DNA from: Deltaproteobacteria bacterium
GTDB taxonomy: Bacteria > Myxococcota > Polyangia > Polyangiales > B10-G4
Direction: 5' to 3'
DNA: 7,722 nucleotides
Assembly (NCBI GenBank): GCA_019312705.1
Contig: JAFDCW010000178.1
Coordinates: forward strand, 1 to 7,722
Of this stretch, positions 2,033 through 7,722 are shown piece by piece; position 1 is the stretch's first letter, and each line of letters opens with the position of its first letter. A model generated the notes under the pieces. That model was not told the DNA's origin. It saw only the letters and a program-made list of their open reading frames with translations, and did not search any database. Position numbers and translations under genes: made by a program.

Positions 2033-4267
2033 TCAGGGAATGCAGCCCTGGGCCGCATCGAGGAATGCCCGGTCATCTGAATCGATCGCACCGCTCTGGT
2101 CGAGGTCGGCGCGATCGCACCACCCGTTGCCTTCGCTGCACTCCGTGCCGTCGGGGAATCCGCCGCGCAGGGTGTCGAATCGGGCGATGTCAGCCCCATT
2201 CACGCCGCCGTTGTCATCGAGGTCGACGTGCGTGCACCCCAGCCTGGCCCAGGTGCAGTCCAACGTCTGGGGGCTGTCGATGCACAGCGCCGCTTCGAAC
2301 CAGAGGTCAAACGGCCCCAAGTTGAACACCGTGTGGTGTGGGTTCTCGACGGCCCCCCACGTGCCGTCGGCCTGGACGGCCTCGTATCCCGCACCGGCGC
2401 GCCGCACCGGCGGGGTCGATCCGAACCGATCCCGGTAGCGCTCCACCCTCCAGGGCGCGCGCTCCGTGATGCTGAACAGATGAGCCTCGACCCTCGCCTG
2501 AATCTCCCCGTCGCCAATGAGTGGTGCACTGGCTGTGTCCGCCAAGGCAAGCGGGGCCTCGAGGGCGCGCGTGTGCTCCTCCCCGCGACCGAATCCGGCG
2601 ACGATAGACAGGGGGCTGTCCAAGGCGAACATCCGGGTATAGACGCCGCCCATGTACTGCATCTGCTCGAGCCGGGCGATCCGATTCGGATCCCCATCGT
2701 CACGTACGATCTCTTCCACCACGCCCTGAAACCGCAACAGGTGCCTCAGATTCGCGATGGCCTCGTCGTAGAGCGCGGCGTCTTCCGTCATGCGGGCATA
2801 CGACGCGAGCGCGACGGGACCGATCAACATCTCGGCGAAATCGTCCATGGTGGTGTCGATGATCCCCAACAGCATGTCAGGCCCGAACATGTCGAGGACA
2901 CCGTGGATCATCGGCCCGGAGATATCGGCCCAGCTCACGCCACCGAACGCCTCATCGATGGAGCTGCACGAGTTGGGTGTCCCGTCGGAGGGGAAGCCGA
3001 GGGAGGTCAGGATCAGCCCGAACCCAGCCAGGTCCGAAGCGCCTGCCAGCGGCGTCTCGGGCACGGGAGACCTCAAGCCGCCGCTCGAGATGGCGTGAGC
3101 GAGGTAGATCATGGCGCACGAGTTGAGGCTGCCCAGGTCCTGGGGCTCTTCCTCGCCGTCGGGGTTCCGCTGACCCGCGGGGCTGAGCGTATTGTAGTCG
3201 TGCCACTCGTCGACGGTCATCAAGACGTTCCCGTGGGCCACGATGCTGTCACCCGTGCGCCGGGCCGCGTCGACGGCGCTTTGTGCCGCGTTCCGTAGGT
3301 CCGTGGGCACGCAGGCCATCCGGCGAATGTCCATGGCGGCGAGGAAGCCCATGGCGACGTCGGTGAAGTTGTCGCGGGAATTGTGGTTACCCCACCATGC
3401 TCCGGCCCAGGGGCCCCTCTCGGAGCGCACAAACGACGAGCAGCAGTCGGATTGCCGGATGAACGCCGGACTGCCGTCAAGCTCCGAGAACACATAGGTG
3501 GCGGAAAACGACCCGGTGTCGTGCAGGGGCATGAACCGGAAGAAGAAGTCTTCGGGGTTCTCGCGATAGGTGAAACGCACCCCCTCGTAGAAGCTGTCGA
3601 GGATCTCCTGTTCGAGTCCGGGCGGTGGTGCAACGGGGGGGTCTAGCGGTGTGCCGAGACGAGTCCTCGTGACCGTGTCGGCGACGCCGTCGGTGACGCG
3701 GGTCCATCCGGGCAGCGCCTCGCGGGTGGTGAGGCCCGGGTGCCCCGAGACGGCCTCGTTGAAGGCCGCCCCGCGCAGCATGCGAATCAGCGAGAGCTCG
3801 AAGTCGCGACCCCCAAGCGCCTGGTACAGCTTGTAGGTGGCGAAGAGGGACATGCACATCGGCATGTTGTTGTCCGGGCCGAGGATGACCTCGTAGTTGT
3901 CACCTGACCGCGCGACGGCCGAGCGCCCGAAGAAGTTCGCCGCCGACGCGTCGCCGCCGAGAGCAAAACGGTTGACGGAGACGAGCACCCGACTCGACCG
4001 CTCGCGGTAGAATGCCTTGAAAGCGTCCGCTCGCGCCGACGGGTTGGGCTCGGATATCGCGGTGGATGCGGGGTCAGGCCAACACGCCAGGTCTGGGATG
4101 ACGGGCGCGGGTGGTCGGGCTGCGTCCGAGTCGGTCGCGCCGTCGCCGACGGGGCCTGCATCACCGACGGGTCCGGTATCGACGTCGCCCGGCGACTCCC
4201 CCCCGCATGCGGACCCGACCGCGACGAAGACGAGCAGCAGTGGCGTCAGCATGTGCGTTGTTCTCAT
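2033..4267 (-). CDS. Large lipoprotein with C-terminal dockerin-like EF-hand pair, unknown function
   Basis: 744 residues. The N-terminus is a lipoprotein signal (hydrophobic 8-18, lipobox GSAC, Cys at 21), then an Asp/Gly/Pro/Ala-rich linker to about residue 55 containing a GPVGD-AGPVGD repeat, typical of surface lipoproteins in myxobacteria-like genomes. The main body (about 60-660) is not recognised; it looks globular and largely alpha-helical, with aromatic-rich segments such as ENPEDFFFRFMPLHDTGSF and AWWGNHNSRDNFTDVAMGF and several cysteines, including a CC pair. The C-terminus has two calcium-loop repeats: D682-L-D-D-N-G-G-V-N-G-A-D693 and D721-L-D-Q-S-G-A-I-D-S-D-D732, both with ligands at loop positions 1, 3, 5, 9 and 12, as in dockerin domains, and with Cys residues around them. 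It is probably anchored to a membrane and exposed to the periplasm or exterior. An enzyme of polysaccharide turnover is one possibility from the dockerin-like tail, but no catalytic motif supports it. ATG 4267 fits the signal peptide; Met6 is an alternative. Confidence 0.88.
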   Translation of the reverse strand: MRTTHMLTPLLLVFVAVGSACGGESPGDVDTGPVGDAGPVGDGATDSDAARPPAPVIPDLACWPDPASTAISEPNPSARADAFKAFYRERSSRVLVSVNRFALGGDASAANFFGRSAVARSGDNYEVILGPDNNMPMCMSLFATYKLYQALGGRDFELSLIRMLRGAAFNEAVSGHPGLTTREALPGWTRVTDGVADTVTRTRLGTPLDPPVAPPPGLEQEILDSFYEGVRFTYRENPEDFFFRFMPLHDTGSFSATYVFSELDGSPAFIRQSDCCSSFVRSERGPWAGAWWGNHNSRDNFTDVAMGFLAAMDIRRMACVPTDLRNAAQSAVDAARRTGDSIVAHGNVLMTVDEWHDYNTLSPAGQRNPDGEEEPQDLGSLNSCAMIYLAHAISSGGLRSPVPETPLAGASDLAGFGLILTSLGFPSDGTPNSCSSIDEAFGGVSWADISGPMIHGVLDMFGPDMLLGIIDTTMDDFAEMLIGPVALASYARMTEDAALYDEAIANLRHLLRFQGVVEEIVRDDGDPNRIARLEQMQYMGGVYTRMFALDSPLSIVAGFGRGEEHTRALEAPLALADTASAPLIGDGEIQARVEAHLFSITERAPWRVERYRDRFGSTPPVRRAGAGYEAVQADGTWGAVENPHHTVFNLGPFDLWFEAALCIDSPQTLDCTWARLGCTHVDLDDNGGVNGADIARFDTLRGGFPDGTECSEGNGWCDRADLDQSGAIDSDDRAFLDAAQGCIP

Positions 4268-4654: not shown

Positions 4655-5326
4655 ATGCCTCGAACGCCTCTTCGGCCCTCTCGGGTCCGCACGTCCATCA
4701 ACGCTGGCCCCGTCGTGCCGCTGGCGAGGGTGCCATCGACGGGTCGCGCGAGGCGGGCCATGGGCGAAGCGCTCATCGCCGACATCGCGGCACGGCGTGA
4801 ACGCATCGCCGAGGACTTCTACGAGATCGGCCTGAACCTCCAGAAGCTGTCGCGGAGTCAGGTGTATCGCGCGATGGGCTACGACAGCTTCGACGCGTTG
4901 CTGACGGGCCGCCGGCTGATGGCGCGGGTGCAGGCGTTCAAGCTCATCACGGTCGTCGAAGCCTACCCCAAGGCGATAGCCCTCAGCCTCGGCGTCGAAG
5001 TGGGTTACGCCCTCGTGCGCTTCACCGCGGCAACCCCCGCCCCCGACGTCGCCCGAAGGTTGGCCCAGTCCAACGCGATGATCGACGGCAAGCGCGTCAA
5101 GAGCATGACCGTCGCCGACCTCCGCAACGCCACCAAGCGCGTCACGGCCGCCCCGCGACCAACCGACGCCGACACCCGCCACGCCCGGGGCATCGCCCGA
5201 ACGCTGCAAGCCATGATGCGCCGCCGGGGCGCGCCGTCGGCCACGGTCCGAGCAGAGCGCCAAGGGGCCAAGTGGAAGCTCCGGGTCGAGCTGGACCTCG
5301 ACGAGGGCGAGGTGCTGGGGCGGTGA
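4655..5326 (+). CDS. Small basic protein with HTH/ParB-like helical region, putative regulator
   Basis: 223 residues from ATG 4655, 188 from ATG 4760. Not firmly recognised. Residues 38-105 are helical: ALIADIAARRERIAEDFYEIG, then LQKLSRSQVYRAMGYDSFDALL, then a MARVQAFKLITVVEAYP segment. This order (an 'FYEIG' helix, a 'YRxxGYxSF' turn, then a helix reading 'AxKLI') resembles HTH-containing regulators of the DUF3102/ParB-accessory kind. Residues 150-156 (SMTVADL) are followed by an Ala/Arg/Thr-rich linker and a basic C-terminus with alternating beta-like residues (KWKLRVELDLDEGEV). DNA binding is an inference. The N-terminal 35 residues are basic and low in complexity; ATG 4760 has a much better Shine-Dalgarno (GAGG, 6 bases upstream), so the true start may be there. 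The gene has its own promoter and operator-like palindrome and reads toward the Fic gene, but a gap of about 310 bases makes a shared operon unlikely. Confidence 0.75.
   Translation: MPRTPLRPSRVRTSINAGPVVPLARVPSTGRARRAMGEALIADIAARRERIAEDFYEIGLNLQKLSRSQVYRAMGYDSFDALLTGRRLMARVQAFKLITVVEAYPKAIALSLGVEVGYALVRFTAATPAPDVARRLAQSNAMIDGKRVKSMTVADLRNATKRVTAAPRPTDADTRHARGIARTLQAMMRRRGAPSATVRAERQGAKWKLRVELDLDEGEVLGR
4750..4753 (+). promoter_or_regulatory. Shine-Dalgarno favouring an internal start at 4760
   Basis: GAGG followed by six bases and ATG (4760, codon 36 of the longer form). No comparable site precedes ATG 4655. If this start is used, the 35-residue basic N-terminal tail is not made and the transcript has a leader of about 145 bases. 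Confidence 0.4.
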
Positions 5327-5583: not shown

Positions 5584-5616
5584 TATCCTTGACAATCAAC
5601 CCGTATCCTTGACAAT
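5584..5616 (+). repeat. Two 13-bp direct repeats (TATCCTTGACAAT), candidate operator
   Basis: TATCCTTGACAAT occurs at 5584-5596 and again, identically, at 5604-5616, separated by CAACCCG. The 20-bp period puts both copies on nearly the same face of the helix. A reverse-complement partial copy (CAAGGATAG, 5642-5650) lies over codons 2-5 of the Fic gene. The arrangement is that of an autoregulatory operator; the likely binder is the winged-helix N-terminus of the protein encoded immediately downstream (inference). Confidence 0.75.
5589..5616 (+). promoter_or_regulatory. Promoter of the AbiEi-Fic gene, built from the repeats
   Basis: A perfect -35 TTGACA (5589-5594) in the first repeat, a 16-base spacer, and GACAAT (5611-5616, 4 of 6 to TATAAT) at the end of the second repeat. 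Transcription would start around 5623, leaving a leader of about 15 bases. The TTGACA of the second repeat (5609-5614) has no credible -10 at the right distance, so the first copy is preferred. Confidence 0.55.
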
Positions 5617-5627
5617 AGAACTGAGCC

Positions 5628-5632
5628 AGAGG
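5628..5632 (+). promoter_or_regulatory. Shine-Dalgarno of the AbiEi-Fic gene
   Basis: AGAGG, five bases before the ATG at 5638, supports this start and fits the short leader predicted from the promoter. Confidence 0.65.
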
Positions 5633-5637
5633 CCTCA

Positions 5638-7152
5638 ATGCCAAGGATAGCCCCACGCACAGCCCATGAAGCCCTCCAGGACTGGGTCGCCCGGCTTCCC
5701 GAACTCTTCCGGTCCGACAACACCGTCACGAGAGACGTCTCCCGGGCTGTGCGCCGCGGCCTCCTGCGCAAGGTGGCCCCTCGTCTCTACACGACCGACA
5801 CCACCACGCCCCTCGAGCGGTTCACCGCCCAGCGTGCACTCGAGGTCGCCTCGCTTCTGTGTCCGGGCGCCGTGATCTCCCATCGCTCTGCCTTCGAGAT
5901 GCGGCCCGCCGAGGGCACCCTCTTCCTCACCGGCAGGTACGAGCGAACGATCCGCCTGCCGGGACTGACGCTGCGCTTGATTCGAGGGGGCGGCCCGCTC
6001 CCCCACGACATGTCGTTCCTAGACGTGCACCGGGCTTCGGACGCCCGCGCGTTTCTCGAGAACTTCAAGCGCACCAAGATCCGTGGTGTCTCACGGGTCC
6101 TCCCACGAGCCGAGCTCGAAACTCGCCTCGAGCGCCTGCTCCAAGAGCGCGGAGAGGACGACCTGAATGCCCTCCGCGATCACGCCAGGACGCTCGTCGT
6201 TGCCCTCGACGCCCAAGACGCATTTGACGAACTCGATGCCGTCGTCGGCGCACTTCTCCGGTCGCGGGCAGCCCCCCTGTCGTCGCCAACCGCTCTCGCG
6301 CGCGCCTCCGGCGGAAGGCCCTTCGACGCACGACGCATCGCACTCTTCGAGGTGCTGCGCGACGAACTGCAAAACGAGTGGGGCCAGACCACCCGCCCCG
6401 CACCCCACTTCCTCGGACACGCACTCCAGCACCTCGCCTTCATCGATGCTTATTTCTCCAACTTCATCGAGGGCACACGCTTCGAAATCGCCGAGGCCGC
6501 GGGCATCGTCCTGGGCAATGACTTCCCCCGGGCGAGACCCGAAGATGCCCACGACATCCGGGGAACCTTCGAGCTCCTGAGAGACGAGTCGGAGATGCGA
6601 GTGAGCGCCAGCGACGTCGCCGGCTACGAGGCCTTCGCCGCGATGCTCACTAGGCGCCACGCGACCTTGCTCGTCGGTCGGCCAGACAAACGCCCCGGTG
6701 AATTCAAGGAACGCGCCAACCGCGCCGGCAATACCCACTTCGTAGCCCCGGAGCTCGTAGAAGGAACCTTCGAGCAGGGCCTATCCCTCTTCGACACGCT
6801 CACCACGCCGTTTCAGCGCGCCGCGTTCATGATGTTCATGGTCGCCGAAGTGCATGCCTTCGACGATGGCAACGGGCGACTGGCCCGGGCGATGATGAAC
6901 GCAGAGCTCTGGGCCGGCGGCGAAGCACGCATCCTAATCGCCACCGCCTACCGGACCGACTACCTCGGCACCCTCCGGCGCCTCTCCCGGGACCAGGCAC
7001 CCCGGGACTACGTACGCATGCTGAACCGCGCCCACGAGTTCTCCTCGCGCCTCGACTTTGCAGACCTGTCGGCACTCACCCGCACCCTCGAAGACTGCAA
7101 CGCCTTCGACGACTCCGGGCGACGCATCTTGCGGCTTCCGAAAAGGCCGTGA
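5638..7152 (+). CDS. AbiEi-like winged-helix / Fic domain fusion protein (putative AMP-transferase)
   Basis: 504 residues. Residues about 12-55 form a winged-helix-like unit (TRDVSRAVRRGLLRKVAPRLYTTD) followed by CPGAVISHRSAFEM (75-88) and a beta-rich segment to about 145 with LPGLTLRLIRGGGPLP; this layout is that of AbiEi-type antitoxin/transcription regulators. A helical connector (about 155-255) leads to a Fic domain. Its motif is HAFDDGNGRLAR (406-417), matching HPFx(D/E)GN(G/K)RxxR except Ala for Pro; His406 would be the catalytic base and D410, N412, R414 and R417 the ATP/Mg site. An inhibitory motif (S/T)xxxE(G/N) is present N-terminal to it as S274-NFI-E278-G279, as in class II Fic proteins, with R414 its expected partner. 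The flap is near 354-371. Fic domains usually transfer AMP from ATP to Ser/Thr/Tyr hydroxyls of target proteins; the target here is unknown. The promoter repeats suggest autorepression through the N-terminal domain. There is no separate antitoxin gene. The family assignment of the N-terminal half is from pattern recognition only. Confidence 0.9.
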   Translation: MPRIAPRTAHEALQDWVARLPELFRSDNTVTRDVSRAVRRGLLRKVAPRLYTTDTTTPLERFTAQRALEVASLLCPGAVISHRSAFEMRPAEGTLFLTGRYERTIRLPGLTLRLIRGGGPLPHDMSFLDVHRASDARAFLENFKRTKIRGVSRVLPRAELETRLERLLQERGEDDLNALRDHARTLVVALDAQDAFDELDAVVGALLRSRAAPLSSPTALARASGGRPFDARRIALFEVLRDELQNEWGQTTRPAPHFLGHALQHLAFIDAYFSNFIEGTRFEIAEAAGIVLGNDFPRARPEDAHDIRGTFELLRDESEMRVSASDVAGYEAFAAMLTRRHATLLVGRPDKRPGEFKERANRAGNTHFVAPELVEGTFEQGLSLFDTLTTPFQRAAFMMFMVAEVHAFDDGNGRLARAMMNAELWAGGEARILIATAYRTDYLGTLRRLSRDQAPRDYVRMLNRAHEFSSRLDFADLSALTRTLEDCNAFDDSGRRILRLPKRP

Positions 7153-7320
7153 ACGGGGCACTTCCCTACCCGCAATCCGCCTCCGAGCTCATCCGAGTGG
7201 AACGGGGCGACGTTCGCGCGCCACGGCCTGTCGTTCTTTCCCTGACCTGAACGAAAACGGTCATGCACCAGGACACATTCCCCTCTGGGGATCTACTTCC
7301 GCGAAACCGAGCAGGTGTGG
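7153..7320. other. Spacer between Fic and LRR genes
   Basis: 168 bases without a recognisable gene, terminator or clear promoter. GAACGGGGC occurs twice (about 7152-7160 and 7201-7209), probably by chance. The LRR reading frame is already open from the TGA at 7243-7245. Confidence 0.4.
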
Positions 7321-7722
7321 GTGAACATGACCGGAATGAAGATGCTCCGCGTTCCGATCTTGGAGGAGCTGCAACACCAGCGAGCTCTTCGTCACCTCGT
7401 GGTCACCGAGTCGGCCGACTTCAGAGAGATTCGTGGGTTGGACCAGCTGGAGGTGCTCGACGCCTTCTGCCGCGCCACCGACTTCGACGCGCTCGGCACA
7501 CTGACAGGACTGCGATGGCTACGCTTCAAACCGAACGACGAAGGCCAGGTCCGCCAGATCGCAGGTCTGCCTCGTCTCGAGCACCTCGATGTCCTGGGCG
7601 GCTACCTCGAGCAGCCCGACCTCGAGGTGCTCGCGGGCATGACGCAGCTTCGTTCGCTGTCGCTCAGAAGCGTGGGTTCCCGCCGCCCGCTCGACCTGGC
7701 CTGCTTGTCCAACCTGAGGAAC
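7321..7722 (+). CDS. Leucine-rich-repeat protein (3' end outside window)
   Basis: 134 codons are visible, with no stop before the right edge. The translation contains regular leucine-rich repeats beginning at L23, L43, L64, L86, L110 and L132, a period of 20-24 residues, with units such as LEVLDAF, LRWLRFK, LEHLDVL and LRSLSLR that fit the LxxLxLxx strand pattern. LRR proteins form curved solenoids that bind other proteins; the partner and cellular location are unknown, and no signal peptide or membrane segment is visible. The start is uncertain: GTG 7321 has AGG five bases upstream; GTG 7315, ATG 7327, ATG 7336 and ATG 7342 are alternatives. In-frame sequence upstream of 7321 (GIYFRETEQVW, 7288-7320) also reads like protein and the frame is open back to the stop at 7243, so the gene could be 5'-shortened or frameshifted there. 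It lies 168 bases after the Fic gene on the same strand; a functional link is not shown. Confidence 0.8.
   Translation, partial: MNMTGMKMLRVPILEELQHQRALRHLVVTESADFREIRGLDQLEVLDAFCRATDFDALGTLTGLRWLRFKPNDEGQVRQIAGLPRLEHLDVLGGYLEQPDLEVLAGMTQLRSLSLRSVGSRRPLDLACLSNLRN

Follow-up and report, generated by a model that had tools for sequence, protein, structure and literature searches.

An AbiEi-like N-terminal half, a Fic domain and operator-like promoter boxes in a single gene

We analysed a 7,722-nucleotide stretch of DNA (the window) from contig JAFDCW010000178.1 of a Deltaproteobacteria bacterium. It carries a gene for a Fic protein with an AbiEi-like N-terminal half, and three copies of a short box lie at the promoter and start of this gene (Table 1). 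The open reading frame (ORF) is as the first-pass annotation described it. The anatomy proposed there also holds, as a single chain combines an AbiEi-like repressor fold with an intact Fic active-site motif and, ahead of the latter, the motif of an inhibitory helix. The locus of an 86% identical protein, L001, serves as the closest point of reference for the boxes below.

Table 1. Features of the fusion gene and its promoter in the window.
Feature	Position	Strand	Basis or remark
Box 1, TATCCTTGACAAT, with TTGACA (5589-5594) as a -35-like hexamer	5584..5596	+	First 12 bases kept in L001
-35/-10 pair TTGACA-16-GACAAT, sigma-70-like promoter formed by boxes 1 and 2	5589..5616	+	Consensus match only
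Box 2, the 13-mer of box 1 repeated 20 bp further downstream, with -10-like GACAAT (5611-5616)	5604..5616	+	Kept in L001
Candidate ribosome-binding site (AGAGG), 5 nt upstream of the ATG	5628..5632	+	Read by eye
Box 3, inverted copy with 2 mismatches, over start codon and first codons	5637..5649	-	L001 site differs from the 12-mer TATCCTTGACAA at 1 position
AbiEi-like-Fic fusion gene, 504 aa	5638..7152	+	ORF translation, Pfam, protein search, structure model
Winged-helix-like domain, about residues 8-58	5659..5811	+	Predicted fold
AbiEi-like second domain (nucleotidyltransferase-like fold), about residues 59-205	5812..6252	+	Predicted fold
Class II inhibitory motif S274-N-F-I-E278-G279, ahead of the Fic motif	6457..6474	+	Sequence, alignment
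Pfam Fic domain match, residues 339-423	6652..6906	+	Pfam scan
Fic catalytic motif HAFDDGNGRLAR, H406-R417	6853..6888	+	Sequence, alignment

The C-terminal half was identified as a Fic domain by a Pfam scan (PF02661, E=6e-11, above the cut-off). Of the two profiles that the first-pass annotation had proposed to check, Fic and AbiEi, only Fic matched. The catalytic motif had been called nearly full and is in fact complete. The residues of this motif (H406-R417), together with S274, E278 and G279, are invariant in 73 of 73 aligned family members, and the Fic motif is present in all 120 best-scoring relatives, the window protein counted among them. One oddity is HAF in place of HPF (A407), where 72 of the 73 aligned members have proline; the position is free in the published motif HXFX(D/E)GNGRXXR (PMC9755527; here and below, papers are cited from excerpts). 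An in-chain (S/T)xxxE(G/N) motif on the N-terminal side of the catalytic motif places the protein in class II. In class I the inhibitory helix sits on a separate antitoxin (VbhT-VbhA, FicT-FicA, Doc-Phd); here the motif is in-chain and no conserved neighbour was found. By analogy with class II Fic work, the Fic half would be autoinhibited by the S274-xxx-E278-G279 helix, would transfer nucleotide (AMP) and may be toxic or affect growth.

The resemblance of the N-terminal half to AbiEi was found by fold search. The structure model has an N-terminal winged helix-turn-helix (HTH) followed by an AbiEi-type second domain, with the winged helix inside residues 1-150, where the first-pass annotation had placed it. 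Neither Pfam nor NCBIfam gave an AbiEi match in the window protein, and the best relative scanned missed the curated Pfam AbiEi_4 cut-off with 24.9 bits against 25. Because no AbiEi_4 match passes the cut-off, we refer to this half as AbiEi-like. Searches with the N-terminal part found nothing among PDB profiles and no match in PHROGs. The profile comparison took 12 script-picked ORFs at AbiEi_4 loci, two of them doubtful (L163, L166), and a plain hidden Markov model (HMM) search had no domain scoring below 0.04 among the matches listed.

As a free-standing protein the N-terminal module is rare, with 7 matches among 2057 candidates, and a related module is also found in ROK fusions, 10 of which were seen in one search. 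One of these, on a Klebsiella plasmid record (L007:2944-4656), has an AbiEi-like module, a MarR/IclR-like stretch and a ROK domain in one chain. In such proteins (L007; others named Biostraticola, Rahnella and Acerihabitans) the N-module is 37.7% identical over residues 34-145 and matches AbiEi_4 below the cut-off. They differ in that a C-terminal MarR/IclR-like stretch (below cut-off) and a ROK domain replace Fic. A 523-aa Fic protein at L111:1801-3369, with repeats upstream, has an N-terminal part that by eye resembles a different AbiEi-like protein. It is possibly a second type of AbiEi-like-Fic fusion, and the N-terminal HMM of the window family does not match it.

The promoter formed by boxes 1 and 2 is the better of two promoter-like sites upstream of the gene. 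The boxes thus coincide with the -35 element, the -10 element and the start codon, an arrangement that directly fits self-repression. We regard them as operator-like, and the fusion protein would be expected to bind them. A chance duplication of a strong -35 hexamer, with no regulator involved, appears highly improbable. TTGACA is the core of each box and the search pattern was derived from the sequence itself, but the identity extends over 12-13 bp rather than 6 and reaches z 6.8 against shuffles. In addition, all three positions are kept in L001 despite a changed spacer, and other members have boxes that lack TTGACA and follow a 31/41-bp layout.

DNA similarity between the window and L001 starts exactly at box 1 and stops at 7145, so that the boxes and the gene form one conserved block. 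In G001, the 7.1-Mb assembly that holds L001, the 12-mer occurs three times with at most one mismatch, each time at the Fic gene; a reversed control pattern gave 2 matches. In a second assembly (G321, locus L026; 66% identical protein), an 18-mer of its own boxes occurs twice with at most 3 mismatches, both times no more than 80 bp upstream of the matched coding stretch. The spacing of 20 bp is common to the window, L001 and L026.

To assess the boxes across the family, 81 loci were matched and 39 representatives kept, after 10 were excluded by rule (no in-frame start codon, less than 150 bp upstream, or a broken or cut N-terminus) and another 32 were dropped as duplicates (at least 75% identity). 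Repeated 14-mers were scored against 300 dinucleotide shuffles in the 150 bp before each ORF together with 24 bp of the ORF itself. Repeats at p<=0.05 were found upstream of 17 of the 39 genes, compared with 2/36 downstream, 1/39 inside the ORF and 1/38 far upstream. L026 and L062, both left out, carry repeats as well (p 0.01 and 0.02). An earlier run gave 19/49 upstream, 1/44 downstream and 2/49 in the ORF. A single clade supplied 18 close relatives to that run, L047 alone among them reaching 0.05, and near-duplicates were counted among the positives (L001 with the window, L029 with L028).

The box sequences vary among members and their spacing layout tends to be common. In the 17 positive loci, 26 of 41 same-strand spacings fall at 30-32 or 40-42 bp, against 11 of 90 in the controls, which are the best repeats of control regions whether significant or not. 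Spacings are strongly phased close to the helical repeat of DNA, with R=0.69 at 10.5 bp (controls R=0.09), or R=0.88 with one spacing per locus (n=17). The phasing is similarly strong for periods of 10-11 bp, so that 10.5 is not singled out. A box extends into the coding sequence in 11 of the 17 loci, a count without a control. Among the 22 members lacking significant repeats, the best direct-repeat offset lies at 30-32 bp in 10.45, where their shuffles average 0.81 with a maximum of 3.0; this was not a blind hold-out, as the member listings had been seen beforehand. The corresponding values are 3.2/17 for significant members, 5.08/36 downstream, 2.5/39 in the ORF, 0.75/38 far upstream and 4.5/41 for other Fic genes.

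Two results weigh against the boxes being unique to this architecture. No covariation was found between box sequence and the DNA-binding N-domain, and upstream repeats are likewise present in 12 of a set of 41 other Fic genes taken from viral contigs. Specificity of such repeats for the AbiEi-like-Fic architecture was rejected on the latter ground. The L111 lookalike sits among these 41, so the control set is not pure. Repeats precede 10 of 28 genes for proteins of at least 300 aa and 2 of 13 for shorter ones. Pfam scans of 10 of the 12 placed an HTH over the cut-off in one (MerR_1, L119) and below it in two (L123, L144). Strong promoter repeats were noted upstream of the L119, L103, L126, L111 and L144 Fic genes, and the HTH of L119 is of the MerR type and C-terminal. 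Since repeats precede these 12 other Fic genes, many Fic proteins that carry a DNA-binding domain may have operators at their own genes.

The missing covariation would also be expected if the N-terminal part were an AbiEi fold used for protein-protein contact or substrate recognition, with the boxes belonging to another regulator. We consider this decidedly unlikely. The boxes differ between members yet tend to hold their spacing layout, they form one conserved block with the gene in L001 and occur only at the gene in G001, and the related N-module is fused to ROK-family proteins.

The first-pass belief that similar Fic proteins exist in other genomes was borne out: at least 3781 proteins, including the window protein, match at E<=1e-5 among 8000 scored candidates. 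The best 120 relatives are 416-525 aa long and are named 'Fic family protein', 'Fic/DOC family', 'fido' or 'hypothetical protein' at source, many being unnamed. The distribution is patchy. At E<=1e-50 the family is found in 11 of 289 sampled genomes of G006's class, 3 of 282 of G001's phylum and 31 of 296 of G004's phylum; at E<=1e-40 it is found in 5 of 398 of G006's phylum and 9 of 246 of G005's phylum, and the two G006 sets overlap. Matches are present in 30 of 72,556 plasmid records (16 covering at least 80% of the query) and in at least 9 IMG/VR contigs at E<=3e-88, and in none of 50,697 phage records.

The gene seems to be a solitary one. No conserved partner gene was found within 1.5 kb across the 39 loci in the flanking DNA covered, and a flanking ORF is common to only three pairs of these loci. 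A two-gene toxin-antitoxin reading was rejected because a conserved neighbour was not found. No AbiEii (DUF1814) domain was detected by Pfam in 7 chosen window proteins, so the separate AbiEii of an AbiE system was not seen there. Upstream of the Fic gene lies a 223-aa ORF (4655-5326) with no PHROGs match. In L001 a homologue without the first 80-85 codons is found directly downstream of the Fic gene (about 2529-2948), and this ORF family has 6 matches in G001 and 1 in G321. Our guess is a past insertion or recombination of the block of boxes and gene beside copies of this ORF. Elsewhere in the window, a 744-aa ORF (2033-4267, minus strand) has a signal-peptide-like start by eye and no Pfam or NCBIfam match at E<=1, and the start of a leucine-rich-repeat-like protein (7315-7722; LRR_14 E=1e-6, below cut-off) runs off the contig end. 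In two plasmid loci of Bacteroidota (L057:2046-2771, L059:1341-1943), the Fic gene has a DUF6088-annotated gene nearby.

A self-regulating HTH-Fic logic is not new, because HTH-Fic fusions were pointed out in 2009 by Kinch and colleagues, who proposed the HTH as a possible regulator of fic expression (PMC2686095), and because for CccR of Yersinia pseudotuberculosis, a class II Fic protein with a C-terminal HTH that is secreted by the type VI secretion system, repression of its own promoter has been demonstrated (PMC9755527). CccR and the fusion protein share a class II Fic domain, an in-chain inhibitory motif, a fused DNA-binding domain and repeats near the -35 and -10 elements. They differ in the position and type of the DNA-binding part (a C-terminal HTH in CccR, an AbiEi-like protein at the N-terminus here) and in the operator. 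That of CccR is an inverted repeat of 10 bp with a spacer of 26 bp; here there are two boxes in direct orientation and a third, inverted, at the ATG. A C-terminal HTH of the CccR/SoFic type was not found after the Fic core, where the model has only an 18-residue tail beyond helix 477-486. In AbiE systems (S. agalactiae AbiEi, 6y8q; M. tuberculosis Rv2827c, 1zel), AbiEi is paired with a separate AbiEii nucleotidyltransferase toxin, whereas Fic is covalently joined here; both AbiEi and Rv2827c control their own expression by way of inverted repeats (PMC3985639, PMC7319586). For CbFic2, SoFic and BtFic (8cil, 3eqx, 3cuc), the excerpts name no AbiEi-like domain among the described features, and the winged HTH of CbFic2 and SoFic is C-terminal. 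An excerpt of PMC2701414 gives AbrB, Xre and YhfG as neighbours of Fic/Doc; the terms COG5340, AbiE and COG2253 do not occur in it. We recognised no description of an AbiEi-Fic fusion in the open-licence PMC literature among the matches listed. What is new is the AbiEi-like putative repressor at the Fic N-terminus with a promoter built of boxes; the strategy of self-control is already known.

With the predicted fold, the motifs, the box array and its promoter placement, the scarcity of the boxes in one genome and the phasing across the family computed, we consider it likely that the gene encodes a self-repressed, autoinhibited AMP-transferase in a single polypeptide. The AbiEi-like part (the winged helix at 8-58 with 59-205) would bind the boxes over -35, -10 and the gene start, and box occupancy would repress the gene's own transcription, while the S274-xxx-E278-G279 helix would keep the class II Fic domain inactive. 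A falling protein level, or a signal loosening the protein from DNA or from the inhibitory helix, would lead to derepression, and the freed enzyme would AMPylate a target, probably slowing growth. The coupling of activity to the protein's own expression, proposed in the first-pass annotation, is supported by operator-like boxes over the promoter that occur only at this gene in G001; repression itself, like autoinhibition, AMPylation and the growth effect, we infer from work on CccR, AbiEi and class II Fic proteins.

DNA contact might instead mainly control the enzyme, toggling it between AMPylating and de-AMPylating or inactive states with the boxes as activating or silencing ligand. There is a precedent in CbFic2, a Coxiella class II Fic protein whose activity is altered by DNA through its C-terminal HTH (PMC10628234), and such control is compatible with autorepression and with boxes found only at the Fic gene in G001. 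The boxes, however, coincide with -35, -10 and the start codon, which fits repression directly, and we judge mainly enzymatic control rather unlikely. It is also unlikely, in our estimate, that the protein senses its own operator, lying silenced on boxes that in G001 are confined to its gene, such that gene loss (for example with the plasmid or island carrying it) or lost DNA occupancy frees Fic. The gene would then be repressor, antitoxin-like restraint and toxin at once, as a single-polypeptide addiction or defence module with the AbiEi second domain as in-chain antitoxin.

In conclusion, a large family gains a testable regulatory logic, and the boxes allow it to be tested directly. AbiEi-type repressors, known from two-gene abortive-infection systems, are found here fused to other domains (Fic, ROK), and a potentially harmful enzyme may hold itself off through its own repressor. 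If box binding does gate both enzyme and promoter, this single gene would act as a toxin module that keeps watch on the locus in which it lies.
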